A DNA stretch of 64,000 nucleotides, taken from NCBI GenBank assembly GCA_036397255.1, contig DASWJH010000079.1, forward strand, positions 1-64,000. Direction: 5' to 3'. Shown piece by piece: positions 1-37,798 of this stretch. The notes under the pieces were generated by a model. That model did not search any database and had not been told where the DNA came from. It worked only from the letters and a program-made list of their open reading frames with translations. This DNA comes from Nitrospiria bacterium (GTDB taxonomy: Bacteria > Nitrospirota > Nitrospiria > DASWJH01). Both the position numbers and the translations under genes were made by a program. Each line of letters starts with the position of its first letter. Position 1 is the stretch's first letter.

Positions 1-373
1 AATGGGAAGAGAGCATCCTGGGCGTTTTAAACAAGAGCTGCACCAGAAGGTAGACTAAGAATCCGTTGGCGATGTGAATGAGCAGATTGACCAGATGGTA
101 GCCAAAAACATTAAGTCTCCCGAAGTGATAATTCAATGCAAAGGATAAATATCCAATATAGCGGCTATCGGACATATCCAGAAGGTTTGAAAGATGTTTG
201 ATCTTGGGATTCTCTACAATCCTGATCACATCGTCGAAATGGAAAGAGGAGGTGAGGGTGTTGAAATAGATAAGGGTCGCCAGAACTGAAAGCGCCAGTA
301 AGACCACCCGTGGGCCCGCAGTTAGGGCCTCAGAGGCGGGAGCCTCTTCTCCTCGTTGTTCTTCTTGGTTCAT
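1..373 (-). CDS. TMTC-like GT-C membrane protein, N-terminal fragment cut by window edge
   Basis: Reading the minus strand from an ATG at 371-373 gives an open frame to the window edge (about 124 residues). It has a short acidic N-terminus, one transmembrane segment, then FHFDD followed by a loop and HLVNLLIH. This is the same layout as the complete paralogues in this window (a WDD motif after the first membrane helix, then HLTN..H). It is therefore the start of another member of the array, transcribed after the gene ending at 467 with a 93-bp gap. The sequence is more diverged than the other four: the W before DD is replaced by F. The acidic pair after TM1 is where GT-C glycosyltransferases carry their catalytic acid. 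The substrate is unknown. Confidence 0.75.
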   Translation of the reverse strand, partial: MNQEEQRGEEAPASEALTAGPRVVLLALSVLATLIYFNTLTSSFHFDDVIRIVENPKIKHLSNLLDMSDSRYIGYLSFALNYHFGRLNVFGYHLVNLLIHIANGFLVYLLVQLLFKTPRMLSSH

Positions 374-466
374 CTTTTAACGCCACTTTCTCATTTTCGT
401 TAGATTAAGGATTAAAATATCTGAATTTTAGATTTATATTTTTTTGGAATTTTTTTAACCTTCTGT

Positions 467-2302
467 TCAAGGGTCAACCTGACCTAATTCCCGTTGCACT
501 TCCCGGAATTCCTTTTGCGCGTTCAGGTAAATTTCGGAGTGTTTTTCCTCAGGGTTCTCTAAATTAAAATATCGGATAAATACCTCCCGTGCTTCCTGAA
601 AGCGACCCATTTTTTTTAAAAGAACCCCTAAATGAATATAGGCTTCCGGTTTATCTGAAAAAATCTCAATGGCTTCCTGAAATTCTTTCAGGGCTTCCTC
701 TTTTTTTTCCAAACGAACAAGGACTTTACCCAATCGAACATGGGTTTTATAAATTTTAGGATTTCTAGCCAATTCTTCCCGGTAAAATACAACGGAACGG
801 TTTAGATCCTTTTCCTCATAGAGGATTCCTAAATTGTGAAAGGTTCCGGAGACCGCAAGGTTTTGTTTCACAAGGGCCAAAAAAATTTCCTCGGCTTTTT
901 GAGTTTTGCCCATATTTTGATACAGGGTTCCCAAATTATGCAAAAGTCTGGGAGAGGGTGAAACATGTTTTAGTGAATTCTCATAAGCCTGGGCAGCCTG
1001 TTCCAATTGACCTGATTCCTGATAGGCATTTCCAAGGTTCATATGGCCCATGGCAAAATGGGGGGCCTTTCGCACCGTATCTTCCCACAGCAGGATATCA
1101 CTCCCCCAAATACGATTTTGATTTACGGTCATCAGGAAAAATAGGAACAACACACCGATTCCGACCCCCGCCCAGACCTTTCCCGCTAAGGGAATGGCGG
1201 GGTGGGCACCCCGCTTCATCAACCTCCCCCAGCAGAAGGCCACCGAAAGGGAAAATCCGATGGAGGGAATATAGGAAAACCTTTCCACGACAATCGGCCA
1301 GGGGATGGGAATCAAATTTAATACAGGAACTAAGGTCACTATCATCCACAGACCCCCAAACACAATCTCTTTTGAGAACCGGCCGATCCGAAATAGAACA
1401 TAAAGCAAAAGACTCAAAAAACAAATACCCCAAATCAGGGTCAACGGAGCGGAGTCAAACAGGTTCGGTTTATCATGAAAAATCGTCAAGGGGTATGGAA
1501 CCACCAGCAAGCGCGTATAATCCCATAATAAAGCAGGGGCGTTGAGAATTCGCCCCAAAATCCCTTCCCAATTATTTTCAGGTGAGAAACCAAATCCCAG
1601 GACCTGTTGTCGTATCATTAAATAAAAGAAGATCACCAAACCCAGAGGAAGGTAGGTGGGCCACCGGGATATGGCCTCCCCAAACCCTTTCCAAGGACGG
1701 ACCAAAATATAATCGTACAAGAAAAACACAATGGGAAGCGTAATCACCATTTCTTTGGTCAATAACCCCAATCCAAAACACACCAAAACCATTCCCTGTG
1801 AAAAAAAGGAAAAAGGTGGATGGTTTCTGAGGGACTGATTAAAAAAATAAAAAGAAGTAAGAAAGAAGAGGGAGGCCAGGGGATCGGTCCGAGCAGCAAT
1901 AAAGGAAACCGATTCAGAATGGATGGGGTGGACTGAAAAAAGAAGGGCCCCTATAAAAGACATCAGAGGATTTTGAAAAAGCCGAAGTGTCACTCCATAA
2001 AACAAAAGGACCACCATCGCATGGAGAATCACATTGGTCAGGTGAAACCCAAACGGATTGTCTCCCCAAATCTGATAATCTACCAAATAGGAAAGCGACA
2101 CCACCGGGCGATAAAAAGCACATTCAATCGTAACCCCCTCACAAAATTGGGACGTAAAATAGGTCCCGATATATTTCACATTCTGGAAATGGGAATTATT
2201 TGAAACATAGGTAGTATCATCCCACACAAAAGGATGCTTCAAGGTGTTGCCGTACACCAGAATACTTACGACCAACAAAATGAGAGGGTTCCAAAATCTC
2301 AT
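467..2302 (-). CDS. TMTC-like multi-pass glycosyltransferase-like protein with C-terminal TPRs (611 aa)
   Basis: The first ~400 residues are a multi-pass membrane region. It opens with TM1 and then FVWDD (residues 25-29), FYRP, HLTN..H, a VHPIHSESVSF..ARTDP block and VERFSYIPSIGF. These motifs closely parallel eukaryotic TMTC O-mannosyltransferases and GT39/GT-C enzymes, in which the acid pair after TM1 is catalytic. From about residue 415 to the end there are five or so TPR units, which in this family probably bind the acceptor or partner. ATG start at 2300-2302. A decayed paralogue lies directly upstream and the edge fragment lies downstream, so this is part of a tandem array read from one strand. 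The function as a glycosyltransferase is inferred from architecture. The donor is probably a polyprenyl-phosphate sugar, and a GT2 that could make it lies nearby. Confidence 0.85.
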   Translation of the reverse strand: MRFWNPLILLVVSILVYGNTLKHPFVWDDTTYVSNNSHFQNVKYIGTYFTSQFCEGVTIECAFYRPVVSLSYLVDYQIWGDNPFGFHLTNVILHAMVVLLFYGVTLRLFQNPLMSFIGALLFSVHPIHSESVSFIAARTDPLASLFFLTSFYFFNQSLRNHPPFSFFSQGMVLVCFGLGLLTKEMVITLPIVFFLYDYILVRPWKGFGEAISRWPTYLPLGLVIFFYLMIRQQVLGFGFSPENNWEGILGRILNAPALLWDYTRLLVVPYPLTIFHDKPNLFDSAPLTLIWGICFLSLLLYVLFRIGRFSKEIVFGGLWMIVTLVPVLNLIPIPWPIVVERFSYIPSIGFSLSVAFCWGRLMKRGAHPAIPLAGKVWAGVGIGVLFLFFLMTVNQNRIWGSDILLWEDTVRKAPHFAMGHMNLGNAYQESGQLEQAAQAYENSLKHVSPSPRLLHNLGTLYQNMGKTQKAEEIFLALVKQNLAVSGTFHNLGILYEEKDLNRSVVFYREELARNPKIYKTHVRLGKVLVRLEKKEEALKEFQEAIEIFSDKPEAYIHLGVLLKKMGRFQEAREVFIRYFNLENPEEKHSEIYLNAQKEFREVQRELGQVDP

Positions 2303-2309
2303 TTTCCCC

Positions 2310-2766
2310 TTATGGACTCAACCCACGCTCAAGAGATTGTATTTCCTGTAGGCGTTTTTGGACATGAAAAAATTCTTTGGACGGGCTCTGATGAGGGGAA
2401 ACCATTTCCAAAATTTTCTTGTATGGTTCTTCCGCCTCACCCCAACGACCCAGGGCAAAAAACAAATTTCCTAAATTGAAGGGCCTCTATATAGGATTTG
2501 GCCGTTTCCTCCAAATTTCCCCGGTCATGGAAGGCCAGCCCAAGGGTCAGGTGCCCCATAGCGAAATGAGGCGTTTTTTCTATGGTATCCTTTCATAATA
2601 ATATCCCATTACTCCAAACCTGGTTCCTCTTTATGGTCAACACTGAAAAAATAGCATCCTCAGCACCAATGCTCCCATCACCCCGTTTCTTAAACCCCAG
2701 AAGAGGCCCACGTTCTTTCCCCCACAGGGCGTTGATGGGGGGCGGGTTCGAGTGTGATCTCATCAA
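2310..2766 (-). pseudogene. Decayed remnant of a TMTC-like/TPR paralogue
   Basis: The gap between two intact paralogues is not empty. On the minus strand, frame by frame, it reads FSVLTIKRNQVWSNGILL, an in-frame stop, KDTIEKTPHFAMGHLTLGL, FHDRGNLEETAKSY, then after a frame change FNLGNLFFALGRWGEAEEPY and a tail ending at TAA (2310-2312). The intact neighbour has FSVLTVMRNRVWSDEILIW and KDTVNKSPHFALGHMNLGL at the same place. What remains is the end of the membrane domain and about two TPRs, with one stop and at least one frameshift; the N-terminal two-thirds are gone. This is a gene relic, not a working gene. Confidence 0.85.
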
Positions 2767-2770
2767 GGGG

Positions 2771-4780
2771 TTACTCCACGGGTTGTAGGCGAAGGGCCCT
2801 CAATCGTTCTTGTATGACTCCATACTCACTGGAACCTCTGCGCTCAGGGGGGAAAAAAATGAGGGCTTGTTGGTAGACCTTCTCTGCTTCGGTGAAACGC
2901 TTCATGGAATAAAGAAGATCACCCGTATCCAAATAAGAAACCCATCTTTGAGGGAAAATTCGGATGGCTTCCTTAAATTCATGCAGCGCTTCTTCCTTTT
3001 TTCCGAAACGATTATACAGGCGACCTAACCAAAGATGCGCCTTATAATAATCGGGATCCACCCGGATCGCCTCTTTATAAAAAAGAAAAGCGTTGTTATA
3101 ATCCTTCTTCTTTAAAAAAATAGAACCCAAATTAAAATAGGTAACCGGAAACGCCTGCCCTTGTTCAATTAAAGTTTGATACCTTTGTATGGCTTCATCG
3201 GTTCGGTCCAATCTTTCATAAAGAGACCCCAGGTTATGGTAAACCTTCGGGTTGGAGGGGTCATTCGACAACGATCTCTCATAAGCCCAGGCCGCTTGTT
3301 CAAAATCCCCGCGTTTTTGATGATTAAGACCCAGATTCATATATCCCAACGCAAAATCGGGAGATTTTTGGACCGCGTCACTCCAGAGAAGGATTTCATC
3401 ACTCCAAACCCTGTTACGCATGACCGTTAAAACCGAGAAAATGACCAGTAGTAACACCATTAAAACTCTCGACCCTCCTTTAATCCAAAGGGATGGAATG
3501 GCACTTTTCGTTTTCAACAAGAGGTTAAAAATAAACCCCAAGGATAAGGCAAACCCCATGGATGGAATATAGGAATACCGTTCACTCGCCATAGGCCAAG
3601 CAATGGGAATAATATCCAAGACAGGTAAAAGAAAAATAGCAAACCAGAGGCCGCCGAATAAAATTTCTTTAGAAAACCGGCCCATTCGTAATATAAGGAA
3701 AAGGTAGGACCCCAAAAAGATTAAACCCCACGCAATGGCCACCGTTGCGGAACCCCACCATTCAGGGCGGCCATGAAAGGGTTTCAGAGGATAAGGAAAA
3801 ACCTGAAGGCGAAAATAATCCCAAAATATAGCCGGCGCGGTCAATATTCGAACCCAGCTCTCTTCCCAACGAAGGTCTTGTGTTAATCCATAACCCAGGG
3901 CATGGTTCCTTGCAACAAAATAAACCAGAATGATCATTCCATAGGGAAGGTACGTTTTCCAACGGAACAGGAGGTCGGCCGCCCCCCTCCAGGGACGGAA
4001 AAAGAAAAGATCATACAAAAGCAACAAAAGAGGAAGGGCTAATGCAACTTCTTTGGTCAGAATGGCTAGGAAAAAGAAAGTGGAAGACAGAAATAAGAAA
4101 AAACCCCTCCTTCCCCTGAATGACCCCGCACTTTCCCCAAGCCCATCCAACCCGCTTCCGCCTACCCCACCAGACTTTTCCTGAACCTCCGATTTTTCTT
4201 GATCCGGCAAGTCAGGGAAGTCTTCACCGCTAGGTTCCTTTCCCAAAGAAACCTCAGAAGGAGCGGTCTCCTTAAGGGATGACAGGTATCGACTAAAAAA
4301 GAAAAAGGAAGGTAAAAGAAACAAAGAAGTGGTGGGATCGGTTCGATTGGCAATCACTGCAACGGATTCAACACGCACGGGATGTACTGCAAAAAAAAGG
4401 GCGCTGACAAAAGCCACATATGGGTTTTTAAACACCCGAACCAAAACAAAATAAAAAAAACATACCACGAGAACATGAATAAGAACGTTGGTGAGATGGA
4501 ACCCAAAAGGACGATTTTCCCAAACCATAAAATCAAAAAGATATGAGAGGGAAACAATGGGGCGGTAGAAGGCACAAGCCTGGGCCCTGGCCGCCCCCTT
4601 ACAAAAACTGGCCGAAAAATATTCGCCAATATATTCCGTTTTTTGTAGATGGGAATTATTGGAAACATAGACCAGATCATCCCACACAAAAGGATTCCCC
4701 AAGGTATTGATAAAAACCCCTCCAGTGATAAGCACCAATACCAAATAATAAATGGGATTCAAACGTTGCACCCGGGTCAC
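2771..4780 (-). CDS. TMTC-like multi-pass glycosyltransferase-like protein with C-terminal TPRs (669 aa)
   Basis: Paralogue of the neighbouring array members, with TM1 then FVWDD (residues 31-35), CAFYRP, HLTNVLIH, a VHPVRVESV..ANRTDP block, SERYSYIPSMGF and five C-terminal TPRs from about residue 470. It differs by a hydrophilic, acidic, Gly/Ser-rich insertion of roughly 60 residues (about 165-225) between two membrane helices, absent from the siblings. The start is GTG (4778-4780), one base after the stop of the upstream paralogue, which suggests translational coupling. Probably an inner-membrane enzyme with an outward-facing catalytic DD and TPRs for acceptor binding. The activity is inferred from family resemblance. 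Confidence 0.83.
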   Translation of the reverse strand: MTRVQRLNPIYYLVLVLITGGVFINTLGNPFVWDDLVYVSNNSHLQKTEYIGEYFSASFCKGAARAQACAFYRPIVSLSYLFDFMVWENRPFGFHLTNVLIHVLVVCFFYFVLVRVFKNPYVAFVSALFFAVHPVRVESVAVIANRTDPTTSLFLLPSFFFFSRYLSSLKETAPSEVSLGKEPSGEDFPDLPDQEKSEVQEKSGGVGGSGLDGLGESAGSFRGRRGFFLFLSSTFFFLAILTKEVALALPLLLLLYDLFFFRPWRGAADLLFRWKTYLPYGMIILVYFVARNHALGYGLTQDLRWEESWVRILTAPAIFWDYFRLQVFPYPLKPFHGRPEWWGSATVAIAWGLIFLGSYLFLILRMGRFSKEILFGGLWFAIFLLPVLDIIPIAWPMASERYSYIPSMGFALSLGFIFNLLLKTKSAIPSLWIKGGSRVLMVLLLVIFSVLTVMRNRVWSDEILLWSDAVQKSPDFALGYMNLGLNHQKRGDFEQAAWAYERSLSNDPSNPKVYHNLGSLYERLDRTDEAIQRYQTLIEQGQAFPVTYFNLGSIFLKKKDYNNAFLFYKEAIRVDPDYYKAHLWLGRLYNRFGKKEEALHEFKEAIRIFPQRWVSYLDTGDLLYSMKRFTEAEKVYQQALIFFPPERRGSSEYGVIQERLRALRLQPVE

Positions 4781-4781
4781 C

Positions 4782-6743
4782 CTATGGCTGTTTGTTTAAG
4801 ATTTCATTGACACGCATTTGAGCATAGGCATACTCTTTTGAACCCTTTTGATCTGCAGGAACCCTACGGATGAACTGTGAAAAAGCCTCCCCTGCCTCAT
4901 TAAATCTTCCCAATAGCCGAAGAACCTCTGCAATATCAAAATAGACCTTATACCGCATGGGAAATATCCCAATGGCTTCCCGGTAATGGGCCAAGGCCCC
5001 TTCTAAATTTTTTTGATACTCTAAAAGGCGCCCTAACCGAAGATGGGCTTTGAAATAACCAGGGTCCTTTTCAAGGGCTTTTTCGTAGAAGTGGACCGCC
5101 TGGTCAGGCTCCTTTTTTTCTTCAAACAAAATGGCCATGTTCAGGTAGGTCTCGGGAAAGGCGTCACCCTGGGCGGCCAAGCGTTGGTAAAGGTTGAAAG
5201 CCTTTTCCGGTCGGCCTGTATCTTGATAGAGCCTCCCAAAGTTATGAAGAAGTTTGGGAGAAGAGGAAGTCAAGGTCAGCGCCTTTTGATAGGCGCTTTC
5301 GGCTTCTTGCAATTCCCCCCGTTCATGATAAGTCAGACCTAAATTCATATGGCCCAGGGCAAAGTGGGGAGATTTATTAACGGTATCTTTCCAAATCAAA
5401 ATTTCATCACTCCATACACGGTTTCGCATAACCGTGAGGACTGAAAAAATCATGAGGACCCCAACAAACATTTTGACCCAACCCCTTTTCCCAATATTTA
5501 AAGGAGGCAGAGGTAAATGGTTCATTAAATAATTACCCGCAACCCCGATCATCAAAACAAAACCAAAGGAAGGGATATACGAAAAGCGTTCCACCACGGT
5601 GGGCCAGGGAATTGGAATAATGTTCAGAATAGGCAACAGGGTGACCAGGAACCAAATCCCACCAAAAACCCCTACCTTTGAGAAAGGGAAAAGCCGATAC
5701 AAAAAAAGGAGAAAAAGAAACAAAAAAATCATCCCCCAAAAGATTCCTGCCCAAGGGGACCCAAAAAGCGTCGGCCTCTCATGGAAAATCATAAGGGGAT
5801 ACGGAATAATTTGAAGCCTAAAGTAATCCCAAATCAAGGCAGGGACGGTGGCCAAGCGGATACCCAATTCATTCCATTTTAAATCCTGTGTTAATCCATA
5901 ACCCAAAGCCTGATGACGAATTTTAAAATAAAAAAGAATGACCACCCCAAAGGGAAAATAGGTGGGCCACCGGAAAAGAAAATCCTTCCACCCGTTCCAG
6001 AGCCGGACAAACATCACATCATACAGCAGGAGCATCAGGGGAAGGGTAATCACCATTTCCTTGGTCAATAGACCCAGCCCAAAAAAGAGTAAAGAAAGAA
6101 AAAAAGGAACCATCCGGAAAATTCCCCATGATCGAAGATACCGGTCAAAACAAAAGAATGATATAAACAAAGAAATCGAAGCCAGGGGATCGGTCCGGGC
6201 CGCAACGAAGGCCACCGACTCAGAATGAACGGGATGAACCGCAAAAAGCAAACCCGCGATCAAAGAAGCCCTGGGCCGTTGAAAGAGTTTGAGGGATACC
6301 CCGTAAAACAAAAGAACCGCACCCATATGAAGGATGACATTGGTCAAATGAAAACCCAAGGGGTGCTTGCCATAGATTAAAAAATCCCCCAAATACGAAA
6401 GGGACATCAAAGGACGGTAAAACGCGCACTCCTTTGCGGCCCCTTTGCAAAAACTTTCGGTAAAATATTCCGAGATATGGCTGGTTTTTTGAAGATGGGA
6501 ATTTTGGGAAATAAAAACCGTATCATCCCAAACAAATGGAAATTGAAGGGAATTGACGTATACCAAACCCGTCAATAGAATAAGGAACAATGGATAAGCA
6601 AAACTATAATTTTTGAGGGCCATCCCGAAAAACCCCGAGTTCACTCCCTGAAGGGGAAGGGGTTCCATGGGAGCCCCCAATGGTTTTTCTCTATTTTCAT
6701 CCGGTTGCAAATCAGAACCGTTATGGCCCGTGGCGTGACTCAT
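4782..6743 (-). CDS. TMTC-like multi-pass glycosyltransferase-like protein with C-terminal TPRs (653 aa)
   Basis: Third complete array member. It has an extra ~45-residue polar N-terminal extension before TM1, then FVWDD (residues 70-74), CAFYRP, HLTNVILH, VHPVHSESVAFVAARTDP, VERFSYIPSFGF and about five TPRs from residue 440 onward. ATG start at 6741-6743. The downstream paralogue begins one base after this stop codon. The closest match within the window is the 611-residue copy, with long identical stretches around LLTKEMVITLP and the AARTDP block, pointing to recent tandem duplication. Predicted inner-membrane GT-C type glycosyltransferase; donor and acceptor unknown. Confidence 0.85.
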   Translation of the reverse strand: MSHATGHNGSDLQPDENREKPLGAPMEPLPLQGVNSGFFGMALKNYSFAYPLFLILLTGLVYVNSLQFPFVWDDTVFISQNSHLQKTSHISEYFTESFCKGAAKECAFYRPLMSLSYLGDFLIYGKHPLGFHLTNVILHMGAVLLFYGVSLKLFQRPRASLIAGLLFAVHPVHSESVAFVAARTDPLASISLFISFFCFDRYLRSWGIFRMVPFFLSLLFFGLGLLTKEMVITLPLMLLLYDVMFVRLWNGWKDFLFRWPTYFPFGVVILFYFKIRHQALGYGLTQDLKWNELGIRLATVPALIWDYFRLQIIPYPLMIFHERPTLFGSPWAGIFWGMIFLFLFLLFLYRLFPFSKVGVFGGIWFLVTLLPILNIIPIPWPTVVERFSYIPSFGFVLMIGVAGNYLMNHLPLPPLNIGKRGWVKMFVGVLMIFSVLTVMRNRVWSDEILIWKDTVNKSPHFALGHMNLGLTYHERGELQEAESAYQKALTLTSSSPKLLHNFGRLYQDTGRPEKAFNLYQRLAAQGDAFPETYLNMAILFEEKKEPDQAVHFYEKALEKDPGYFKAHLRLGRLLEYQKNLEGALAHYREAIGIFPMRYKVYFDIAEVLRLLGRFNEAGEAFSQFIRRVPADQKGSKEYAYAQMRVNEILNKQP

Positions 6744-6851
6744 CCGAATGGTTCCTCACCGGTAAAAAGATTCCTCACAAAGGCTTTCATCATTGTCCTT
6801 GAATCATTTAAAAAGCAAGCCCGGTATTCATTGCGACAAATGTTTCAGGGA

Positions 6852-7631
6852 TTAGGGAAGCAAAAACTTTACTTTAAAGATTTTGGTTTGATGAAGGAGA
6901 TAACGGAAAATGGCCCAGAGGGTTTTTAAACCATATCGCAGACTGGTCCAAAAATTCACCGAGGAAGCGTCTTTGAAATATTTGGTGGTTACCGGAATTT
7001 CCCCAATTTTAAATTTGAAAGCCACGGCTTGAATCAAAACCTGCGTATCAAAATCAAAATCATTAGAATTTCTCAAAAAGGGAATCGTTTCTAAGAATCG
7101 ACGGCTATAGGCCCTATACCCGGTATGAAATTCAGACAAGGATTGCCCCAATGCAACATTTTCAATGGTGGAAAGAATTTTATTGGCAATGAACTTGTAC
7201 ATTGGCATTCCTCCTTTCAGCGCGCCTCCCGGCATCAACATTCTTGAACCCAGCACAATATGAGCTTCTCCGTTTAAAATCGGTTTAACAATCTCCGAGA
7301 TAAACCTCGGATCATATTGATTATCGGGATGCACCATCACCACCACCTCACCACCATCCCGGAGGGCTTCCATATAACAGGTTTTTTGGTTTCCCCCGTA
7401 ACCCACATTATGGGGATGTTTGATGACCTTAATATTCAAACGCTCCGCTAAAGTCGCCGTATTATCCGAGCTGGCATCATCCACCAGAATCACCTCTCCA
7501 ACAATATCTCTCGGAATTCCCTCAAAGGTATGCCAAAGGGTTTTGGCCGCATTAAAAGCGGGCATCACCACGATAATTTTAGGCAACGATTTCACTTCAC
7601 GGTCTTTCACCTCAAACGCTTCTTTTTCCAT
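6852..7631 (-). CDS. GT2 family glycosyltransferase, dolichyl/polyprenyl-phosphate sugar synthase-like
   Basis: A 259-residue GT-A fold protein. It has VVMPAFNAAKTL (about 22-33), EVILVDDASSDNT (46-58) and HPDNQYDP (101-108) in the DxD metal/nucleotide-sugar position, followed by the HTGYRAYSR acceptor-site motif typical of DPM1/DPG synthases. Only weak hydrophobicity at the C-terminus, so it is probably peripheral or held by a partner. Such enzymes move a hexose from a nucleotide sugar to polyprenyl phosphate, making the lipid-linked donor used by GT-C enzymes. Its place just upstream (in transcription order) of three TMTC-like proteins fits that role. The specific sugar cannot be told from sequence. 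Confidence 0.85.
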   Translation of the reverse strand: MEKEAFEVKDREVKSLPKIIVVMPAFNAAKTLWHTFEGIPRDIVGEVILVDDASSDNTATLAERLNIKVIKHPHNVGYGGNQKTCYMEALRDGGEVVVMVHPDNQYDPRFISEIVKPILNGEAHIVLGSRMLMPGGALKGGMPMYKFIANKILSTIENVALGQSLSEFHTGYRAYSRRFLETIPFLRNSNDFDFDTQVLIQAVAFKFKIGEIPVTTKYFKDASSVNFWTSLRYGLKTLWAIFRYLLHQTKIFKVKFLLP

Positions 7632-7649
7632 ATTCTATTCCCCTCATAT

Positions 7650-8654
7650 TTACTTAGGCGATTTTCTCGCAACCACTTCGATGGTGCCACCATAACCCAG
7701 GATTCCATCCAAAGGACAAAAGACAAGGGAAATTAAAAAAAGGGGCACGGATAACAAAAACATCAGGGAAGAACCGATAAAAAATTTCTTCCGATTGATG
7801 GGAAGACCGGTTTGTCCCAGTCCCCCATCAATATCCGCATTGAGGATTCGCCGAAAAGACCATTGATGATTGAGAAAATCAAAAAGCAAATTTTGTCTTG
7901 ATGACAAAAGATTTAGAATGCTTTGAACAAAACCAAAGGTATCATATTCAAAAGAGAACCGGTTCATTTTTCCCACCTGAAACCCTTCCTGTTCAAGCAA
8001 ATCCACCAGGTTTTCAGGTTTAAAATGAAACAGATGCCTTGGCACATCCAGATGAAACCAGTGGGGCCCGGCCAATTTGGCCTGGAGGCTTCCATAATTA
8101 GGAACCGACAGAATCAAAAGGCCATCCGCCTTTAAGATTCGCCGTATTTCACGAAGAGTGGTCCTGGGGTTAGGGAGATGTTCCAGAACATGCCACAAGG
8201 TAACCACATCAAAGGTCCCATTTGAAAATTGCCCCTCCTCCAAAGATCCGTAGTGAATGTCGATGCCTTGAGAATTTTTTCCCTCATGAACGGGCCTGAC
8301 CCCTATTTCCGTTCCCTGTACGTGCCAACCTTTCCCCTTTAACATCTCAAGCATGCGGGCCTTCCCGCACCCCACATCCAGAATTCGACCGGATTTCTTT
8401 TTGCCAAACCCCTTTTCGATCCGACGAACTCTCAAGTAACACGTCACCCATTCAAAAAAAGATCGACGATCTCCATAATAAAAAACCGGATAATAACGCC
8501 CCATTTCCTTCGGAGAAGGTTGGGGACTGATAAAACAAAAGGAACACCCATTACACCGGACCAAATCAAATAAATGACCTGTGAGGTAGTCCCTAACGGG
8601 ATACAACCTAACAACCCTATTGTGGTTACAAATTTTGCAAACAGACTCTTTCAT
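7650..8654 (-). CDS. Class I SAM methyltransferase with N-terminal zinc-ribbon-like motif and C-terminal membrane segment
   Basis: Residues 6-37 hold two CxxC pairs (C6/C9 and C34/C37), a zinc-ribbon-like start seen in many sugar and lipid-glycan methyltransferases. The SAM site is ILDVGCGKAR (91-100), with WHVLEHLPNP (154-163) as the post-motif. Near the C-terminus FIGSSLMFLLSVPLFLISLV is a probable membrane helix. The gene lies 18 bp from the GT2 gene and 12 bp from the large fusion gene, so it is co-transcribed with the glycosylation array. It probably methylates a sugar, lipid carrier or glycan terminus; the substrate is inferred only from context. Confidence 0.8.
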   Translation of the reverse strand: MKESVCKICNHNRVVRLYPVRDYLTGHLFDLVRCNGCSFCFISPQPSPKEMGRYYPVFYYGDRRSFFEWVTCYLRVRRIEKGFGKKKSGRILDVGCGKARMLEMLKGKGWHVQGTEIGVRPVHEGKNSQGIDIHYGSLEEGQFSNGTFDVVTLWHVLEHLPNPRTTLREIRRILKADGLLILSVPNYGSLQAKLAGPHWFHLDVPRHLFHFKPENLVDLLEQEGFQVGKMNRFSFEYDTFGFVQSILNLLSSRQNLLFDFLNHQWSFRRILNADIDGGLGQTGLPINRKKFFIGSSLMFLLSVPLFLISLVFCPLDGILGYGGTIEVVARKSPK

Positions 8655-8666
8655 TTCTTTTTTCCT

Positions 8667-11600
8667 TCAATCCAAGCGGTTAAGATCACTCAAATGGGTC
8701 CTTGCAATTTGTAACTGGTTTGCAAATAAAACGTTTCCCTGGGCAAGAGTAATAAATTGATTAAAAAAATCCACCGCTTTTTCAACGTTTCCTTGCTCTT
8801 TTAAAAGAAATCCCAAATTATAATAGCCCGATGGATCGGTGGGATTAAGACCAATAGCCGTTTGGTAGGCCTGGTAAGCCTGATCCAGGCGACCCATTCG
8901 TTGGGACACCGCCCCAAGGTTTAAATAGGCTTCAAAAAAAGTCGGTTGAATTTGGATAGCAACCTTGTAGGCCTGGAGGGCACCCTCCATATTTCCAGTG
9001 GCTTGATAAATATTCCCCAAATTGTTGTGTGCGAGAAAATGGTTAGGATCCAAAACCAAAACCTCTTGATAAATTCGAGCCGCCTCTTCTAACCTTCCCC
9101 GCTCCCTTTGTAGGTCGGCAAGATGAAATAATGCGGTGGTTTTTTGATTGGAAGATGATTTGTTGATTAATTTTACAAGAATTGCTTCAGCCTCTTTAAA
9201 ATCCCCCGTATTTTGATATAAAAGGGCAAGTTGAAGGTGGGGGTTAAATTGATTGGAATCTATTTGAATTGCTTTTTGATAGGCTTGAATGGCTTTCTCC
9301 TGATTTTTTAAGCGCAAATAAAAATCACCCAATTGTGTCTGAATATATGCCGAGCGTGGATTTGTACGGATTAAATCCAAATAAATTTCTTCTGCACGCC
9401 TGATATCTCCCAATGTTTCAAACCCCTGGGCAATGCCCTCCAGAGTTTCTAAAGAAGAATTTTCATCCAATAAAGCCCGCTTTAATTCTCCCCTTTCGCT
9501 TTTAATTAAAAGAGAACGGGATTCCTTATTCCCCCCGAAAATCCTGTAACGGTCCAGAACTTTGGCTTTAAGGAGGTGGCCTTCCCCGTTACTCTTTTCC
9601 TCTAAGGCTGCATTTACATAGGAGAGGGCATTAGGTAATCTTCCTTGTTTCAGGGAAGAAGCCGAAAGCTGCAAAAGAAATGGATTGAGATCCATTGGGT
9701 GATTAACAGCCAGCGAAATCATTGTATTGAGTACCTTCGGGGGCAATTTCGGATAAAGAACCTGGCTCACATGGGTTCCCCCTCCTTTTGTTTCAAAGTA
9801 ATAATAAGGCCCGAAAAACTCAACATAGTTTTTATCATCCGTGTTAATGGTCGCTCCATCGATCAAAGTTGAAATAGACTCATCTCCCCCTAAATAAAGG
9901 GACAAAAGATCGGAAATCCCATCAATATCTATCCGCTGGAGGTCTTTTGCAATTTCCAATTTTGAAATTTTGGCAAGGACTTTATCATAGTTAATATTCA
10001 ATGGGTTTTTCGAGCCAATCCAGAGAAGATCCCCGGGGGTTGTCTCAAAAACCATTACAAAGGGAAACACACGTGTAAAGGCTTTAAAGGCAGATAAATA
10101 ATGATCCACACCAAGTGCATCGGTGCTGCTAAACCATTGACTAAACACCCCCCCTTCCTTTAATCGTTTGGCAACCAGTTGAAAAAATTCTTGTGTAAAA
10201 AGGTTTGAAGCACCCGTGATCCAGGGAATGGAAGGCTGGGAAATAATCACATCAAAGGAACTCCCATTGGCCAACAGGTAATTTCTCCCATCGTCCACGA
10301 TCAATTCTACACGGGGATCATTCCACGGTTGGTAATTCACATCTCCAAAAAACCTGGAAGCTTCTAAAATGGTACTTTCCAATTCAACCGCTTTTATTTC
10401 CTGAACCGGATGTAGGGATGCGGATCCAACCGTCACCCCGCTCCCTAATCCAATAATAAGCACATTTTTTGGGTCTTGGGCCATCAATAAAGGAAGGTGG
10501 GAGAGCAAAACTTGGGTTCTCATATATCGACTTGAGGATTCCTTTCGGCCATTGACTTTTAAATTCATTATATTTTTAATATCCCGTTCCACGGTTACCG
10601 TGGCAGTTAATCCCTCTCGATAAAACAAGAGATCGGTTTGGTTTTCCACAAAACGATTAAATTCATCTTTAAAAGAACCTTTGTTTATATCATGAAAATC
10701 TTGTAGGTTCCAAAAAACCCCCGAAGTCATGACCTTTTGATTCCATTGGGGAGGAAAAAATGAAAAAACGGTGAGAAAGAACCCCAGAAGAAAAATGAAA
10801 ACCAACGGTTTACCCCACCCTCTTGTCAAGGAAAGGCCAAGGATGACCAGCCCACACGCTAGGTTTAAACCCACCATCAGCAAAAGCGTATATTGAATTC
10901 CTAAAACAGGAATGATAATAAATCCTCCCGAAAAAGCTCCAAAAATAGCTCCCAACGTATTGACGGAATAGGTATCTCCCGCAACACGGCTGACAGCCTG
11001 AATCCGGTCTCTATAAATTCTTGCAACCAAAGGAAACATCATCCCCAATAAGAACGTTGGAAGAAACATAACAGAAAATGAAAGAAGGAACTGAATGAGG
11101 GGAAACAAAAGGGGGGTCCCAAAAGACCGTTCTTCAAAAAAATACCCGTAAAGGGTCACCATCCATTTGGGAAGGTTTCCCAAACCCAAAAGGGTCATAT
11201 AGGCAAATATCCCCGTTGCTATTTGAATAAAGGCAATAAACAAAAAACGAAAGGTAATTCGCTCCACCACCGAAGCCGAAACAAAGGAACCAAAAGCCAA
11301 ACCGGCTAAAAAGGTCGTGAGCATGGCGCTAAACGCATAAACCGATGACCCTAAAACCAGTGAGAGGGCTCTACTCCAAGCAACTTCGTAAACCATTGCA
11401 GAAAACCCAGATAGTGCAAAAACAATTAAAACCACGGCAACGCTTTTGTTGGTTACGGGTTTTTCCCCAGTCTTTAATTCCTTTTGAATTCCCCATGGCT
11501 CGGTGGGTTTTGAAGAAATAGTTGTTAAGGGAAAAGAACTCTCTGGTCCCTTATTCAATAATTCACCTTCCAAACCGGACTCAAAAACTTTTTTCCCTTC

Positions 11601-12233
11601 CCTTTCTCTTTCCAAGCGAAGTAAAAATATTATTCCCAAAGCAATGAATAAATTGACCATAACCGCTAAAAGAGTGGTATTAAAAAGTCCAAGAAAGGGT
11701 AAAAAAATAAAACCTCCCGCAAAGCAACCCAAAATCGCCCCGGAGGTATTGAGGAAATAAAGAAACCCAAGGGTATGGCCTATCCCTTTGTTTTCTCGCG
11801 CCATATAACGGCCTAAAACGGGGAAGGTTGCCCCCATCATTGTGGTTGGAATAATGAGGATGATCCCCATTAGGAAAAAACGGACCAAACTGAAGGTATA
11901 GAACTGAAGATGGAGGGTTTCCCAAATGACCCCATAGGATGCCTCAAGGATGGGAAGGAAAAGAGGAAACAGGATTGCGTAGAGTCCAATCCCCGCTTCC
12001 AATAAGGCATAGATTAACAAGGGGTTCCTTTTACGCACCATCATAAACCGTCCAAAAAGGAAACTCCCTAAACCCAATCCCGCCATAAAGGTTGTTAAAA
12101 CCGTACTGATCGCAAAAGTGGTTGACCCAAAAATTAAAACCAACCATCGGGTCCACACCAATTCGTAAATCAGCGCAGTCATTCCGGATAAGAAAAAACA
12201 AAAGAGAACCCATTTTTTGGACGAATCAGTCAT
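8667..12233 (-). CDS. Fusion: two membrane domains + spermidine-synthase-like domain + TPR array (about 1188 aa)
   Basis: Order of parts: a first membrane bundle (about residues 10-210) and a second homologous one (265-495) that share the pattern LSG..ALIYE..W.R..LVLGS..FA.S..LTTF.AGL.LGSF, then a Rossmann methyltransferase-like spermidine synthase domain (540-720) with VLIIGLGSGVTVGSA and DDGRNYL, then roughly nine TPRs (850-1185). In true spermidine synthases the strand after the DDGR motif carries a catalytic Asp; here it reads FDVIISQPSIPW, with Gln, so polyamine synthesis is unlikely. I chose the ATG at 12231-12233 behind a GGGG; a TTG four codons earlier has no ribosome site. Inner-membrane protein in the glycosylation array; real reaction unknown. 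Confidence 0.85.
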   Translation of the reverse strand: MTDSSKKWVLFCFFLSGMTALIYELVWTRWLVLIFGSTTFAISTVLTTFMAGLGLGSFLFGRFMMVRKRNPLLIYALLEAGIGLYAILFPLFLPILEASYGVIWETLHLQFYTFSLVRFFLMGIILIIPTTMMGATFPVLGRYMARENKGIGHTLGFLYFLNTSGAILGCFAGGFIFLPFLGLFNTTLLAVMVNLFIALGIIFLLRLEREREGKKVFESGLEGELLNKGPESSFPLTTISSKPTEPWGIQKELKTGEKPVTNKSVAVVLIVFALSGFSAMVYEVAWSRALSLVLGSSVYAFSAMLTTFLAGLAFGSFVSASVVERITFRFLFIAFIQIATGIFAYMTLLGLGNLPKWMVTLYGYFFEERSFGTPLLFPLIQFLLSFSVMFLPTFLLGMMFPLVARIYRDRIQAVSRVAGDTYSVNTLGAIFGAFSGGFIIIPVLGIQYTLLLMVGLNLACGLVILGLSLTRGWGKPLVFIFLLGFFLTVFSFFPPQWNQKVMTSGVFWNLQDFHDINKGSFKDEFNRFVENQTDLLFYREGLTATVTVERDIKNIMNLKVNGRKESSSRYMRTQVLLSHLPLLMAQDPKNVLIIGLGSGVTVGSASLHPVQEIKAVELESTILEASRFFGDVNYQPWNDPRVELIVDDGRNYLLANGSSFDVIISQPSIPWITGASNLFTQEFFQLVAKRLKEGGVFSQWFSSTDALGVDHYLSAFKAFTRVFPFVMVFETTPGDLLWIGSKNPLNINYDKVLAKISKLEIAKDLQRIDIDGISDLLSLYLGGDESISTLIDGATINTDDKNYVEFFGPYYYFETKGGGTHVSQVLYPKLPPKVLNTMISLAVNHPMDLNPFLLQLSASSLKQGRLPNALSYVNAALEEKSNGEGHLLKAKVLDRYRIFGGNKESRSLLIKSERGELKRALLDENSSLETLEGIAQGFETLGDIRRAEEIYLDLIRTNPRSAYIQTQLGDFYLRLKNQEKAIQAYQKAIQIDSNQFNPHLQLALLYQNTGDFKEAEAILVKLINKSSSNQKTTALFHLADLQRERGRLEEAARIYQEVLVLDPNHFLAHNNLGNIYQATGNMEGALQAYKVAIQIQPTFFEAYLNLGAVSQRMGRLDQAYQAYQTAIGLNPTDPSGYYNLGFLLKEQGNVEKAVDFFNQFITLAQGNVLFANQLQIARTHLSDLNRLD

Positions 12234-12273
12234 GGTGTGCCCCAATCGAGTTTGGTAAAATATTCAGAAAGCT

Positions 12274-14670
12274 TCAGTGAGAATTCTCTCCCAAAGAGAC
12301 CTCTTTTTCCAATCGTTTAATTTGTTCCTCAACAAAATGGGTCTCTGGGTTTTCTTTCTCCCCCGCCCCAAGGCCTTTCAACATCCCATTAAAATGTTGG
12401 AGGGCTTTTTGGGGTTGCCCCGTTTCTAACAACATTCGTCCTAAATTAACCTGTGCAGTAATGAAATTCGGCTGAAGAGAAACAGCCTTCCCGTAATCTT
12501 CTAATGCCCCTCGTGGATCCCCTTCCATTTCCTTCAGGCTTCCCAGATTGTTGTACACTTGCCAATAATTCGGTTCCAACAAAATCGTTTTTTGATATTC
12601 TTCCCGGGCATCCTTCACTCGGCCCTCTTTCTGATAAGCCAACCCTAAATTATAATGCAGTGTTGCGTCCTTGGGAAACCGACGAATTCCCTCCCCTAAA
12701 ATTTCCGCGGATTGATTATAAAAACCCAGTTGATAATACACCCACCCCAAGTTTTGATAGGCTTTTCCCTGCGGAGGCCCTAATCGAATGGCGGATTGGT
12801 AAGCGATCACCGCTTTTTCTAATGCTTCCTGGCGCACATAAATCCCCCCCAGATTTTGATACCCTTCAATAAAATCCGGCCTAAGCCGGATCGAATCCAG
12901 GTAAGCCTGTTCCGCTTTTTCAAGGTGCCCGGTCCTGGAATAAAGATTCCCCAGACTATAGTAAATCAGGTGGTCTTCCGGTTTTAATTTCATGGCTTTT
13001 TGAAAGGCATCCAAAGCGTGATCATAATCACCTAAAGACGAATAAGTCACCCCAAGATTATAATAAAGCCTCGGAGATTGGGTTGGAGAGATTTTTTTTT
13101 CCGGCAAATTTCTTCTTTCATCCCAAAACAGGGTTTCGTCTTGGCCATGGAGAAGCGAATGATAGACCTCCAGTGCCTGTTTGGGATTCCCCAAGGTGGC
13201 ATAGGCATTACCCAGGTTGATACTCGCCGCCAGGAACCCAGGTCGAACGGCGTAAACTTCCTCTAAAATTCGAACCGCCTCTCCTAAATTCCCCTGGCCC
13301 TGGTACCCTTGGGCCAGATTATTCCCCGCGATCGCCCATGACCAACTTCCAACAGGAAGGTGTTTCATGGTAACCCCCCAAAGGGTGATGTTGTCCTTCC
13401 AATCCTTATTTCGATCCAGTGTGAGCCCTGAAAATAGCAAAAAAATGACCACCCCCAGCGTTGCCCAGATCCAACGGGAAAAAGGGTTCCATTTTGGACC
13501 ATTCTTCGATAAAAGCTGAGAACCCAGCCACCCTACCCAAAAACATAATCCGATGGAAGGAAGGTAAAGAAAACGATCCCATACACTGGGCCAAGGGCTT
13601 GGAACCAGATTTAAAACAGGAATCAGCGTAATTAAAACCCATGCCATTGAAAACAGTGTTTCTTTCGAATTCTTCCCAAATTTTAACAGCGCCCAGCCTA
13701 AAAGAAAACAGAATGAGATCGCACCCAATACCCAAGGATCCATTAGGTTCTTCTGCCCCACAGGTGCGCGAAAGACCTCCAGTGGCCACGGAATCAACAA
13801 CATTCTCACATTCTCCATGAAGAGCAAAGGTGCGGTAAAAACCCGTTGTAAAATCCCATCAAAGAGAGATTCCCCACTGAAGGGGTCTCCAAAAATGTGG
13901 TTTCTCAAAAACAGATAACCGATCACAACGCCCCAGAAAGGAAGGGAGGGCTTTAATCTTGACACCACTTCATTTTTCGCCCGGATGGGATGAGGAAACA
14001 ATAGAGAATAAACCATGAATAAGAGAGGCAGTGTGATGGCAATCTCTTTTGCTAATAAAGCCAACAAAAAACAGATCAAAGAGAAAACCTGAAAAACTAC
14101 CTTTGGTTTTCCAGAGATTTGATCCTTTTTAATATAAAAGATTAGTGCCAAAAGGGAGAAAAGGACCGCAGGAGGATCGGTTCTTGCCGCTACAAAGGAA
14201 ACCGACTCTGAATGGACCGGATGGATCGCAAAAAGGGTCCCTCCGATAAAGGCAGCCATTTTATTATGGAGGATGACCCCGATCACCTGATAAACCAAAA
14301 GTGAAACAGCAATGTGGAAAATAATGTTGGTTAGATGGTATCCAAAAGGGGTTGTTCCCCAAAGGGTGTGATCCAACAGGTAGGTTAGGGAAACCAGGGG
14401 ACGGTAAAAAAAACAGTCCTCATTAACCCCTTTGCAAAAATCGCTTACAAAGAAAAGAAGAGCATTCTGGCCGGATTGAAAGTGAGTATTTCCTAAAACA
14501 TAGGTGTAATCATCCCAGACAAAACCATGGGAGAGCGTATTTAAATAGAGAAAGGCCGCCACCAGGCCTATCCATCCCAGGGCAATGGCTGGACGCTCTA
14601 ATGGGGAAGGATTGAGGGTGGCAAACTTCAAGGTTGTTGGTCCGGTTTCACCAGAATGTGTGGAGACCAT
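12274..14670 (-). CDS. TMTC-like multi-pass glycosyltransferase-like protein with long TPR domain (798 aa)
   Basis: Largest array member. TM1 is followed by FVWDD (residues 50-54), then CFFYRP, HLTNIIFH, VHPVHSESVSFVAARTDPP, WDRFLYLPSIGL and a TPR domain from about residue 440 to 785 with nine or so units, nearly double that of its paralogues. ATG start at 14668-14670. It is the first gene of the minus-strand array. A TATAAT hexamer lies about 150 nt upstream on the coding strand (14823-14828), but no clear -35 accompanies it. The long TPR superhelix suggests a bigger or different acceptor or partner from those of the shorter paralogues. Glycosyltransferase role inferred from the TMTC-like motifs. 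Confidence 0.85.
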   Translation of the reverse strand: MVSTHSGETGPTTLKFATLNPSPLERPAIALGWIGLVAAFLYLNTLSHGFVWDDYTYVLGNTHFQSGQNALLFFVSDFCKGVNEDCFFYRPLVSLTYLLDHTLWGTTPFGYHLTNIIFHIAVSLLVYQVIGVILHNKMAAFIGGTLFAIHPVHSESVSFVAARTDPPAVLFSLLALIFYIKKDQISGKPKVVFQVFSLICFLLALLAKEIAITLPLLFMVYSLLFPHPIRAKNEVVSRLKPSLPFWGVVIGYLFLRNHIFGDPFSGESLFDGILQRVFTAPLLFMENVRMLLIPWPLEVFRAPVGQKNLMDPWVLGAISFCFLLGWALLKFGKNSKETLFSMAWVLITLIPVLNLVPSPWPSVWDRFLYLPSIGLCFWVGWLGSQLLSKNGPKWNPFSRWIWATLGVVIFLLFSGLTLDRNKDWKDNITLWGVTMKHLPVGSWSWAIAGNNLAQGYQGQGNLGEAVRILEEVYAVRPGFLAASINLGNAYATLGNPKQALEVYHSLLHGQDETLFWDERRNLPEKKISPTQSPRLYYNLGVTYSSLGDYDHALDAFQKAMKLKPEDHLIYYSLGNLYSRTGHLEKAEQAYLDSIRLRPDFIEGYQNLGGIYVRQEALEKAVIAYQSAIRLGPPQGKAYQNLGWVYYQLGFYNQSAEILGEGIRRFPKDATLHYNLGLAYQKEGRVKDAREEYQKTILLEPNYWQVYNNLGSLKEMEGDPRGALEDYGKAVSLQPNFITAQVNLGRMLLETGQPQKALQHFNGMLKGLGAGEKENPETHFVEEQIKRLEKEVSLGENSH

Positions 14671-14950: not shown

Positions 14951-17900
14951 TTATCCGCCAGGGGCTTCACAATCATTTCCGATACCGTCCCCATCGCTAT
15001 CCAATTGATTTGGATTAAAAACGGAGGGACAATTGTCCACGAAATCGGCTATTCCATCTGCATCAAAATCAATACTGGATTGATCGAATTGATCGCACAC
15101 ATCCCCGTCCCCGTCCCCATTCTCATCTGATTGATCCGGATTGGGAAGGTTGGGGCAGTTATCTTCTCTATCCGGCACCCCATCCCCATCGATATCGGTC
15201 ACCCCGCCCGCACTTCCTTTGGGGGTAATTTTGACAACGGTTTCCGTATTGGCCGGAAGGGGCGTTGAATAGGAACCGGTAAAATTGGGAGAAACGTTGT
15301 TAACGCCCGTCCCGAGAAAAGAAAGCAGAACCCCCGGTCGGGGCCTTCCCGTCACATCCCCTACTTGTCCTTCCACATTCACAAAGTCTGGGGCTACTTC
15401 CTTCACCAAAATATCCGTTTCGGTCACAGAATCGGGGTAAACCGTGACCAACCTGTTTCCAACGGCGGTATTTTTTGCGTTGACAGAAACCCTACCCGGC
15501 GGGACATTAAAAACGATAAACCGACCATTGGGTGCGGAACGATCTAAGGCCGGGTTGATCCGGCGCCCCCCACTGCCGTCATCCTCCCAAAACCGGACGG
15601 TCCCAACCGTACGGCCCAATTCATTTTTCACATCAATTCCCGCATCGGGAAAGGGTTGTTTATTTCCCAAAAAGGTCACCACCTCATCATCGGTAATCCC
15701 GTCCCCATTAATCATGACCAGATCGGACAACTCATCCTGATTGAAAAGACCTACCGTCAAACCCGTGGGATTGACCCCTGTTTTCAGGTCAGAATCTGAA
15801 AGCCGGGCCTCTTGAAAAAAACCGTTTCCCAAACCTAAATAAATACTTAAACTCTGGGTATCCGAATTCAGAATAGCCAGATCCAATTCCCCATCTCCGT
15901 CGATATCCCGCGGAAAAACAGCGGTCTGTTTGCTCCCCCCGCTCAATTGAAAGAAAACCCCCCTCTCGCGACCCGGCCTTAAAAACAACACGGCAGCTTG
16001 GCCAGACCCCACCAGGATCAAATCATCCACTGGGCGGGTCAATAGGAGGTCATTGGCATCGGTGCGTTGATCCCGGTCAATATTGGCTATGGCCATGGCC
16101 TCCCATGTGGTTCCAGTATCGGCGATTATGGGCTCTACTTGAAAGATGCCATTGGCCTTTCCCAATAAAACCTGGAAACCCTGTCCCCCTACCAACACAG
16201 CAATATCCTGGCCTCCGTCTCCGTTTAAATCTCCCACGGCTAACTGTTTTGGAGGGCCACCAATGGCAATAAAACTTTCATCGGGAAGTCTCCGGAAAAT
16301 GCCATCCTCGAAGCTAAGCAATATTTGAATCTGGTTTGCGGTATCCATGCTTAAGGCAATATCGTCAAACCCGTCACGATTAAAATCCTTGGCCACTACG
16401 AAATTCTGCGGACCGTCAATCAGGAACCCCCTATTGGAAATGAAATTTCCGCTGCGCGTTCCAAAAAAAACCGCAACAAAATTGGATCCTTGATTGGCTA
16501 CAACCAAATCGCTAATTCCATCCCCATTAAAATCTCCCGAGGCAATGGAACTGGGATTAGACATTTGGGAATCCGTTAGAATCCTGGGTGCGGGAAAGGT
16601 CGTGAGTCCATCTCCAAAGGTACCATCCCCGGTTCCAAATAAGACGGTCACCGAATTGAGATCCCGATTGATAACCGCCACATCCTGAAAAGCATCGTCA
16701 TCAAAAAACCCCCTCACAATTCCACTGGGATTCTGGATATTGAGGGAATAAGGGGGATCCTGTTTCTGTAATGAAAAGGTCACCAAACTTCCCGAAAGGA
16801 TCCCTTTAGTTGGATCAATGCCTTCGGCGAGATTTCCTTCATTGGCCCACAGGGCCAGCTCACTCCGTGTTGCAACGGGAAGGATTTGATCGGTCAATTC
16901 CGAAAGACCGGTGTTCAGATGAAAAATATAGGTCGTAATGTCCGCAAGGCTATTTTGAAGGGACTTTAACACAAAATCTCCAAAGGAGCCCAGAGATGCG
17001 GTAAAAGCCCCGGCACCAGAAACCCCTCCTGAATTGAAAACCTCCCCCGTACCCTGAACCTTGAATGAGACCTGGTCTTTCACATTGGATTGAGTTAAAT
17101 CCTTGGTCATCCCGCTCACCACCACTTTTTCGGTGGGAATTTTGGTTACATTCACAAAGGTTAAGGTAACCCCACCCGGAAAGGTAAGTGCTTGAAGTGT
17201 GGCCTCGTCATCCTTTGAGGTTACAAAAATTCGAACCAACCCGGGAAAGGGAGGTGGTGAAGCGGAAGATTGAGGTGTGGGAAGATCTAAAATGACAAAT
17301 CCCCCATCAGAGGAGGTTTGGGTTTGAAAACCGCTTTGATCCAATAATCCATCCTCTCCCGTGTAAAAAATCCGCCCTACCGCCTCCCCCCGGTGATTGT
17401 TTACACTGAGGGTGACCCCCTCCAATGTTCTTCCCGTTTGGCGGTTTAACACTTTCCCTGCAATCATTCCCAAATCGGGATCCACCTCAGCCGGGGAAGA
17501 CATCCCTAAATCCCCCAAACTCATCAGGGTTAAATCCCGTTGAGTCAAACTCGTTCCCATATTGACCGCTTGATAAGTCTCCACATCGGTCGCATTGGGT
17601 CCGCTCACTTTAACCATTTGAAATGAAGCCCCGGGAATCGGAAAAGAATTATCGCAATCGTTATTTGGAGGAATGAAAAAATTCCCACTCGCACCGGTTA
17701 CCACCGGCAAAGTAAACGCCGGAAGAGAAGACTGGCCACAGACCTGGTTAAAAGGAGTATAGGTTTTAAATTCAGGGGGGACACCTAAAACGTCTACCTT
17801 GCCCCCTGATACGAGGGTAATATCATCTGTTCGAAAGACCCTTCCTGAAAAAGGAACGGTATGAGGGAATTCCAAATTGGGTTGTAGAGGGTCATTGAGG

Positions 17901-19189: not shown

Positions 19190-19429
19190 TTTCACGGGAT
19201 TTTCATTTTAAAGGGTAAAGAGCCAGCTTATAGATTGAGCAAGTTCTATGCCACAGCAAGGAAAAAATAAAGGGAGAAAAAATTTATATCTATTTGATAA
19301 ATTTAGGTAAAATAGAAACTCCCAAATCGCCTTATTTCCAATAAAATTTTTAGAAAAAGAGGATAGAAACAATTTCTACATTATGGAAAGGAAAGGCTAC
19401 TTTTTTATCAGGAAGGAGTTAGGTGGGAC

Positions 19430-34942: not shown

Positions 34943-35050
34943 TTTCTTTTCACCCCACGCTTAAAAAATTGTCCATGTCAACCGGGTACCATCGACCAGA
35001 CCCGCTTTATGAAAAAAAATGCTCAGGGTCCTCCTGCAAGGGCAGAGGGA

Positions 35051-37225: not shown

Positions 37226-37798
37226 TCCCTCGGTCTCCTTTTTATTGGGTCCATTGCACACACCACCGATGACCCTTTCATATTAAACAAAGGTCAATTC
37301 TGATAAAACTCAAACAGGCAATTCTTAGGAATTCTGTTATTTCCACAACCCATTAAAAAACATCCATTGAAACCCTTTCTCATCCCCAAAGGCCCTTCTC
37401 CCATTAGAGCAAAACCCATGCCCTAAAAGAAAAAAGAGTAACCTTTTTAAATCAAATGCTTGACTTTATTCCTGAAATCCACCCCCTTTTAACCTGAATT
37501 TTTAAAAAAAGGAGAATCCCCAGACCCTTTATGCCCCCGGCCTGTTTATCATTCTTCCCATAGAGTGAAAAGATTTCCCTAATATTTCCTTCCATTGCTA
37601 AAATAGAAGTGTTTATCCAAAAAATCGCTCCACACCCCTTTGGCCCCTATGGAAAATAAGCCTACTTTACGGGAAAAGGAAATCTCAAAAGGCCGATTCA
37701 TCGCCGGGAACTGAACCTCAACGCCCTTGGGCATGAGTAAAACCGGCAACCCCCCAAAAGGAAACTTCGGAAACCTAACCTTATTAAAATGGATAAAA
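37226..37798. other. 573-bp AT-rich intergenic region
   Basis: No convincing gene on either strand. It holds several A/T tracts and C-rich patches. On the minus strand a weak promoter-like TAATAT lies about 50 bases upstream of the LolA-like gene, without a good -35. No terminator hairpin with T-run was found between the methyltransferase gene and this operon. Confidence 0.5.

Follow-up and report, generated by a model that had tools for sequence, protein, structure and literature searches.

Animal TMTC1-4 are protein O-mannosyltransferases (Eisenhaber 2021, PMC7801869), and that same 2021 study already noted, in one paragraph, full-length prokaryotic homologues such as AMJ42_05695. Named genomes contain at least 553 loci of the wider TMTC-like family, in phyla that include Acidobacteriota, Gemmatimonadota, Omnitrophota, Elusimicrobia, Planctomycetota, proteobacteria and others. 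Within Nitrospirota, TMTC-like genes are present in half of the sampled genomes (123 of 246), often as tandem arrays, the largest of which hold 8-9 genes in 20 kb (L166). Bacterial TMTC homologues are thus abundant, and our literature searches found no functional study of any of them. A preliminary description of the array analyzed here presented its make-up as having no bacterial precedent known to the author, which must be corrected since prokaryotic homologues have been on record since 2021 (PMC7801869) and Nitrospirota commonly carry such arrays. The kind of enzyme is already known in bacteria; what appears undescribed in the literature searched is a conserved cassette of a methyltransferase, a family 2 glycosyltransferase (GT2) and TMTC-like proteins. 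Other described systems that resemble parts of the array are the lipid A aminoarabinose transferase ArnT (5ezm/5f15), a GT-C enzyme that lacks a TPR arm and has lipid A as its acceptor; the GT2 enzymes DPM1, AglJ and PpgS; and Pseudomonas aeruginosa TfpW, a GT-C arabinosyltransferase of pilin and hence of an envelope protein (PMC11841053).

The array occupies positions 1-14670 of the window, by which we mean the whole stretch of 64,000 nucleotides that was analyzed, and belongs to a Nitrospirota genome with an assembly of 3.3 Mb that is 97% complete. Placement in this phylum follows from three loci of genomes assigned to the host's class or phylum whose sequence recurs in named records: L103 is the same as L156 (Nitrospirae bacterium NC_groundwater_1101) from end to end, and L115/L146 and L106/L164 agree over most of the length in which they overlap. 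All of its genes are on the minus strand. Transcription order begins with a TMTC-like GT-C transferase that has the longest TPR array (12274-14670, 798 aa), followed by a fused MFS/spermidine-synthase-like protein with C-terminal TPRs (8667-12245, 1192 aa), a SAM methyltransferase (Methyltransf_23) with an N-terminal zinc-ribbon-like CxxC..CxxC (7650-8654) and a GT2 (6852-7631). Downstream are two further TMTC-like GT-C transferases with TPRs (4782-6743, 653 aa; 2771-4780, 669 aa), the second of which carries an additional hydrophilic insertion of ~50 aa around residues 165-220. These are followed by a relic at about 2476-2670 that retains the last part of a TMTC-like paralogue's membrane domain together with its first TPR (44% identity) and carries an in-frame TGA, by a fourth complete TMTC-like gene (467-2302, 611 aa) with C-terminal TPRs, and by the 5' part of a TMTC-like gene of the FHFDD subfamily (2-373, 124 aa) that runs off the contig end. 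This inventory of four complete paralogues, one edge fragment, one relic, a GT2, a methyltransferase and a fused gene is as the preliminary description gave it. Intact genes are separated by 1-108 bp, except for one gap of 468 bp that contains the relic, so the array is likely a single transcript. Window position 1 is also base 1 of its contig, and the contig breaks inside a recently duplicated gene because another contig (C1) of the same genome starts with a 99% identical copy of the edge gene (362 of 366 bases). Across the GT-C half, the other complete paralogues are 40-54% identical to the 467-2302 product. Phylogenetic analysis places the four complete genes together with C1:5058-7016 in one clade (support 0.996), with three other paralogues from the host genome forming a separate clade in which some of the grouped relatives are embedded in pseudopilin clusters.

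The membrane half of the TMTC-like proteins is, by structure prediction, a GT-C fold. AlphaFold modeled the full-length 467-2302 product with a pLDDT of 94.7 and its membrane half (model m1de9da4d8aca) with a pLDDT of 93.3 and a pTM of 0.94; the latter was modeled and used as a Foldseek query on its own because the full-length protein returned just TPR proteins among the best 50 matches. The top match of the membrane half by E-value was ArnT 5f15 (E 1.4e-4, prob 1.00), further matches included STT3 8age, PglB, Pmt1-Pmt2, Pmt4 9i5k, DPY19, AftA and EmbB, and the best 29 matches were either GT-C enzymes or GPI-transamidase, the latter through PIG-U, which we take to be GT-C-like. Modest E-values are usual for membrane helices, and those obtained here (1e-4 and weaker) are yet consistent in fold type. 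As for ArnT, the donor is likely an undecaprenyl-phosphate sugar. Profile searches gave a more divided answer, with the PMT_2 model scoring above its cut-off for 467-2302 in a genome scan (28.8 bits against 26.1) but PF08409 (TMTC_DUF1736) matching nothing in the whole host genome at E<=10, and hence no window member. A single-protein Pfam scan gave no match in the membrane half, and a sequence-profile search of the PDB gave no GT-C match. Among the members of a 61-member alignment of the GT-C half, PMT_2 was matched in 17 and TMTC_DUF1736 in 5 (E<0.01), and one homologue (L074) had a DUF1736 match of 26.6 bits, against a cut-off of 27, over residues 237-297, which correspond to the EL4 loop.

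The predicted model has 11 TM helices, with the DD, YRP, RxD, KE and ERxxY residues on extracytoplasmic loops and a C-terminal TPR arm, recognized by Pfam, on the same predicted side as the active site. Sidedness of the loops was assigned from GT-C topology together with a weak positive-inside bias (Lys/Arg account for 5 of 34 residues in cytoplasmic loops versus 10 of 143). This topology and the loops on which the residues fall match the published TMTC model, and the DD pair, which had been singled out as the residues to locate, lies after TM1 on the predicted periplasmic, active-site side. Animal TMTC1-4 share the 11-TM GT-C domain and a C-terminal TPR arm that faces the lumen or periplasm, as well as DD in EL1, YRP, RxD in EL2, KE in EL3, PxxP, and ER/DRxxY in EL5. 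Judged by the published motif list (PMC7801869), motifs M1-M4, M6 and M7 are present in the 61-member alignment, where PxxP of M6 was scored by eye and M7 of 12274-14670 was counted as DRxxY. The two acidic residues of the first extracytoplasmic loop, after TM1, are found in 60 of 61 (D28) and 61 of 61 (D29) members. Motif M5, the DW of EL4 for which metal binding has been proposed, is not conserved, being replaced by FH or FR in window members and mostly by FY or DY in relatives. The proposed parallel with TMTC enzymes therefore stands for six of seven motifs, the topology and the TPR arm, but not for the DW motif or for PF08409. Additionally, the window members differ from the animal proteins in being encoded as a tandem array that includes a GT2 and a methyltransferase of its own.

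Exact motif strings had also been described as shared by the array members, and this holds for the motif set but not for every letter. FVWDD is found in all four complete genes, with FHFDD in the edge fragment, which lacks FYRP; the HSESV position reads HPVRVESV in 2771-4780; and 12274-14670 has DRFLYLPS in place of ERFSYIPS. Over 92 diverse homologues from many phyla, D29, H87, H125, P126 and P269 are invariant and D28, P66, K183, R341 and Y344 are more than 90% conserved, so the shared motifs are not a matter of chance.

The GT2 is probably a polyprenyl-phosphate-sugar synthase, as its sequence had first suggested. Its GT2 domain matches dolichol-phosphate mannose synthase 5mlz with an E-value of 4e-9 and is closest to the AglJ (79.5 bits) and PpgS models. 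It differs from DPM1, AglJ and PpgS in scoring under all equivalog cut-offs, in having HPD at the DxD position, as do nearly all orthologues matched, and in belonging to its own single-copy Nitrospirota orthogroup, whose members occur in 55 of 346 genomes and are mostly 49-60% identical. A TMTC-like gene lies within 3 kb of the GT2 orthologue in 17 of 40 sampled loci, where ~1-2 would be expected (binomial p <1e-10, given 5 to 20 TMTC-like genes per genome; the loci are not phylogenetically independent). For ten of these 40 loci the TMTC-like gene directly adjoins the GT2 orthologue on the same strand, and in nine of the ten it is downstream. A methyltransferase relative (31-41% identical over the set) is immediately upstream of the GT2 orthologue in 6 of the 40. 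The order methyltransferase-GT2-TMTC recurs in three loci (L175, L248 and L259) and, with one extra gene ahead of the TMTC genes, in L173. Among genomes searched for both, TMTC-like genes were found in 42 of 45 GT2-positive genomes versus 81 of 201 others, with unlisted genomes scored as negative and kinship uncorrected. Comparative genomics thus bears out the suggested functional link between this GT2 and TMTC-like proteins and supports a conserved cassette that would combine a putative donor synthase, a methylase and a GT-C transferase.

This link is claimed just for the orthogroup of the window's GT2. Adjacency of any GT2 to TMTC-like genes was elevated in a set of 80 fetched loci plus loci from the host's own genome (16 of 153 versus 4 of 595, p 1e-8). 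A general rule was rejected, as 40 loci around random Nitrospirota TMTC-like genes showed no enrichment of GT2 neighbors (5 of 156 at distance 1-2 versus 9 of 230 beyond, p 0.79). Most bacterial TMTC-like genes consequently lie outside such a cassette. The fetched region of 22 of the 40 GT2 loci has no TMTC-like gene and the GT2 is sometimes beside what appear to be other GT-C proteins, so the GT2 may serve several transferases. A recurrent neighbor of the GT2 of 640-690 aa was considered as a partner family and rejected, as it is not one family. A membrane-anchored family of 653-655 aa that has no Pfam match was observed between GT2 and TMTC-like genes in L173 (4334-6301) and L236 (3039-5000).

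The fused protein is the least conserved partner in the array. It matches the fused MFS/spermidine synthase family (NF037959) with 116 bits against a cut-off of 40, and differs from that family in a long C-terminal TPR extension and in its active site, where DSTDP of the Thermotoga enzyme (1inl) aligns with QPSIP so that both aspartates are replaced. Relatives adjoin TMTC-like genes in L176, lie close to such genes in L081 and, by sequence likeness, are next to a GT2 orthologue in L241. It may be a membrane-linked SAM enzyme; its reading as a spermidine synthase or as a fixed part of the system is unsupported.

Taken together, we assign a probability of roughly 0.6 to the array being an envelope glycosylation cassette. 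Going by its family, the GT2 would attach a monosaccharide to polyprenyl phosphate on the cytoplasmic face of the inner membrane, and the methyltransferase could then methylate either this lipid-linked sugar or the product glycan. Each 11-TM TMTC-like protein, whose fold and motifs are predicted and whose chemistry is extrapolated, would transfer the lipid-linked sugar to an acceptor using the DD, YRP, RxD, KE and ERxxY residues on its periplasmic loops. The periplasmic TPR arm, which differs in length between paralogues, would pick the acceptor protein if the parallel with animal TMTCs holds, and it is by this analogy that we infer protein glycosylation. That the paralogues were duplicated within the lineage suggests either different acceptors or redundancy. 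A more specific proposal, which we advance tentatively and hold to be possible at best, is that one lipid-linked and possibly methylated sugar serves several TMTC-type enzymes whose TPR arms choose different envelope proteins, with Nitrospirota holding a bacterial counterpart, and perhaps near ancestry, of animal TMTC O-mannosylation. The conserved donor synthase, methyltransferase and transferase cassette would offer a genetic handle on the role, sugar and acceptor of bacterial TMTC homologues. It would also bear on the origin of the animal TMTC pathway, which is involved in human brain malformation.

Some of these observations could be read differently. The position of ArnT as top Foldseek match would suit GT-C proteins that, like ArnT, glycosylate a lipid or surface polysaccharide such as lipid A, O-antigen or exopolysaccharide, with TPRs that merely hold a periplasmic assembly. 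Other TMTC-like genes of the host are near sugar epimerases, UDP-sulfoquinovose synthase and a heptosyltransferase-like gene, and methyltransferases and radical SAM/B12 proteins are commoner among TMTC-like neighbors than among controls. However, TPR arms, a hallmark of protein recognition, are retained in nearly all homologues as they are in TMTCs, and the array itself has no lipid A or polymer-assembly genes; we regard a lipid or polysaccharide acceptor as unlikely. It is far less probable that these are catalytically dead or scaffold proteins retained for their TPR arms. Such a fate would fit the loss of the DW motif and the decay within the array that the relic represents, but not the near-invariance of DD, K183, R341 and Y344 over 92 homologues from many phyla, nor the conserved association with a GT2 that resembles donor synthases.

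Type IV pilins or pseudopilins, the former being the substrate of TfpW, in which we know of no TPR arm, are also improbable acceptors for the array. Of 80 loci that were fetched independently, 7 have pilin genes within 800 bp of a TMTC-like gene, and over the whole set 13 pilin genes near TMTC-like genes correspond to 1.06 per 10 kb versus ~0.28 beyond. Gemmatimonadota have tandem TMTC-like genes immediately before two type IV pilin genes, two Nitrospirota genomes of the host's class have TMTC-like genes inside pseudopilin clusters (L154 and L157), and contig C38 of the host has them beside PilP/PilQ-like genes. Contig C1 encodes, consecutively, a TMTC-like protein, a decaprenyl-phosphate phosphoribosyltransferase (DPPR synthase; 256 bits, cut-off 234) and an AglJ-like GT2, a row that recalls TfpW (PMC11841053). 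The five pilin-linked Gemmatimonadota loci are, however, related to each other, which leaves few independent events, and no pilin occurs among 156 near neighbors in 40 Nitrospirota loci, so that pilins were rejected as a general acceptor. The window array has no adjoining pilin, and the C38 genes are in another clade. Pilin pairing is thus a lineage-specific lead, and an envelope glycosylation cassette remains our preferred reading of the array.

Several further observations concern related loci. The Gemmatimonadota loci (L102, L104, L108, L132 and L134), some with a GT2 just ahead of the tandem TMTC-like genes and pilin pair, form a candidate pilin glycosylation cassette. L032 of the host genome (7399-12326) has TMTC-like genes inside or beside a type IV pilus/pseudopilin cluster. 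The C1 locus (L031, 5058-9054), with UDP-sulfoquinovose synthase upstream, may be a second lipid-linked-sugar locus, perhaps pentose-based.

Surface proteins encoded next to the array had been put forward as its substrates. When 135 neighbors of TMTC-like genes were compared with 135 controls, the 25 commonest families showed no trend toward adhesins or FG-GAP proteins, which does not favor the adjoining surface lipoprotein as natural substrate; the relatives likewise lend no backing to the broader claim for neighboring lipoproteins and barrels. The adjoining gene itself (14951-19195), 280 bp upstream of the array, encodes a lipoprotein of 1414 aa that carries FG-GAP, carboxypeptidase-regulatory-like and thrombospondin type 3 repeats, and a second FG-GAP protein is encoded at 29180-31000. 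An MMPL transporter, a DUF1302 barrel and a LolA-like lipoprotein-sorting protein are encoded consecutively at 32060-37261, with a second DUF1302 barrel at 19430-21055. Finally, positions 21085-25164 encode a TPR-rich protein of 1359 aa whose C-terminal stretch resembles an outer-membrane beta barrel.
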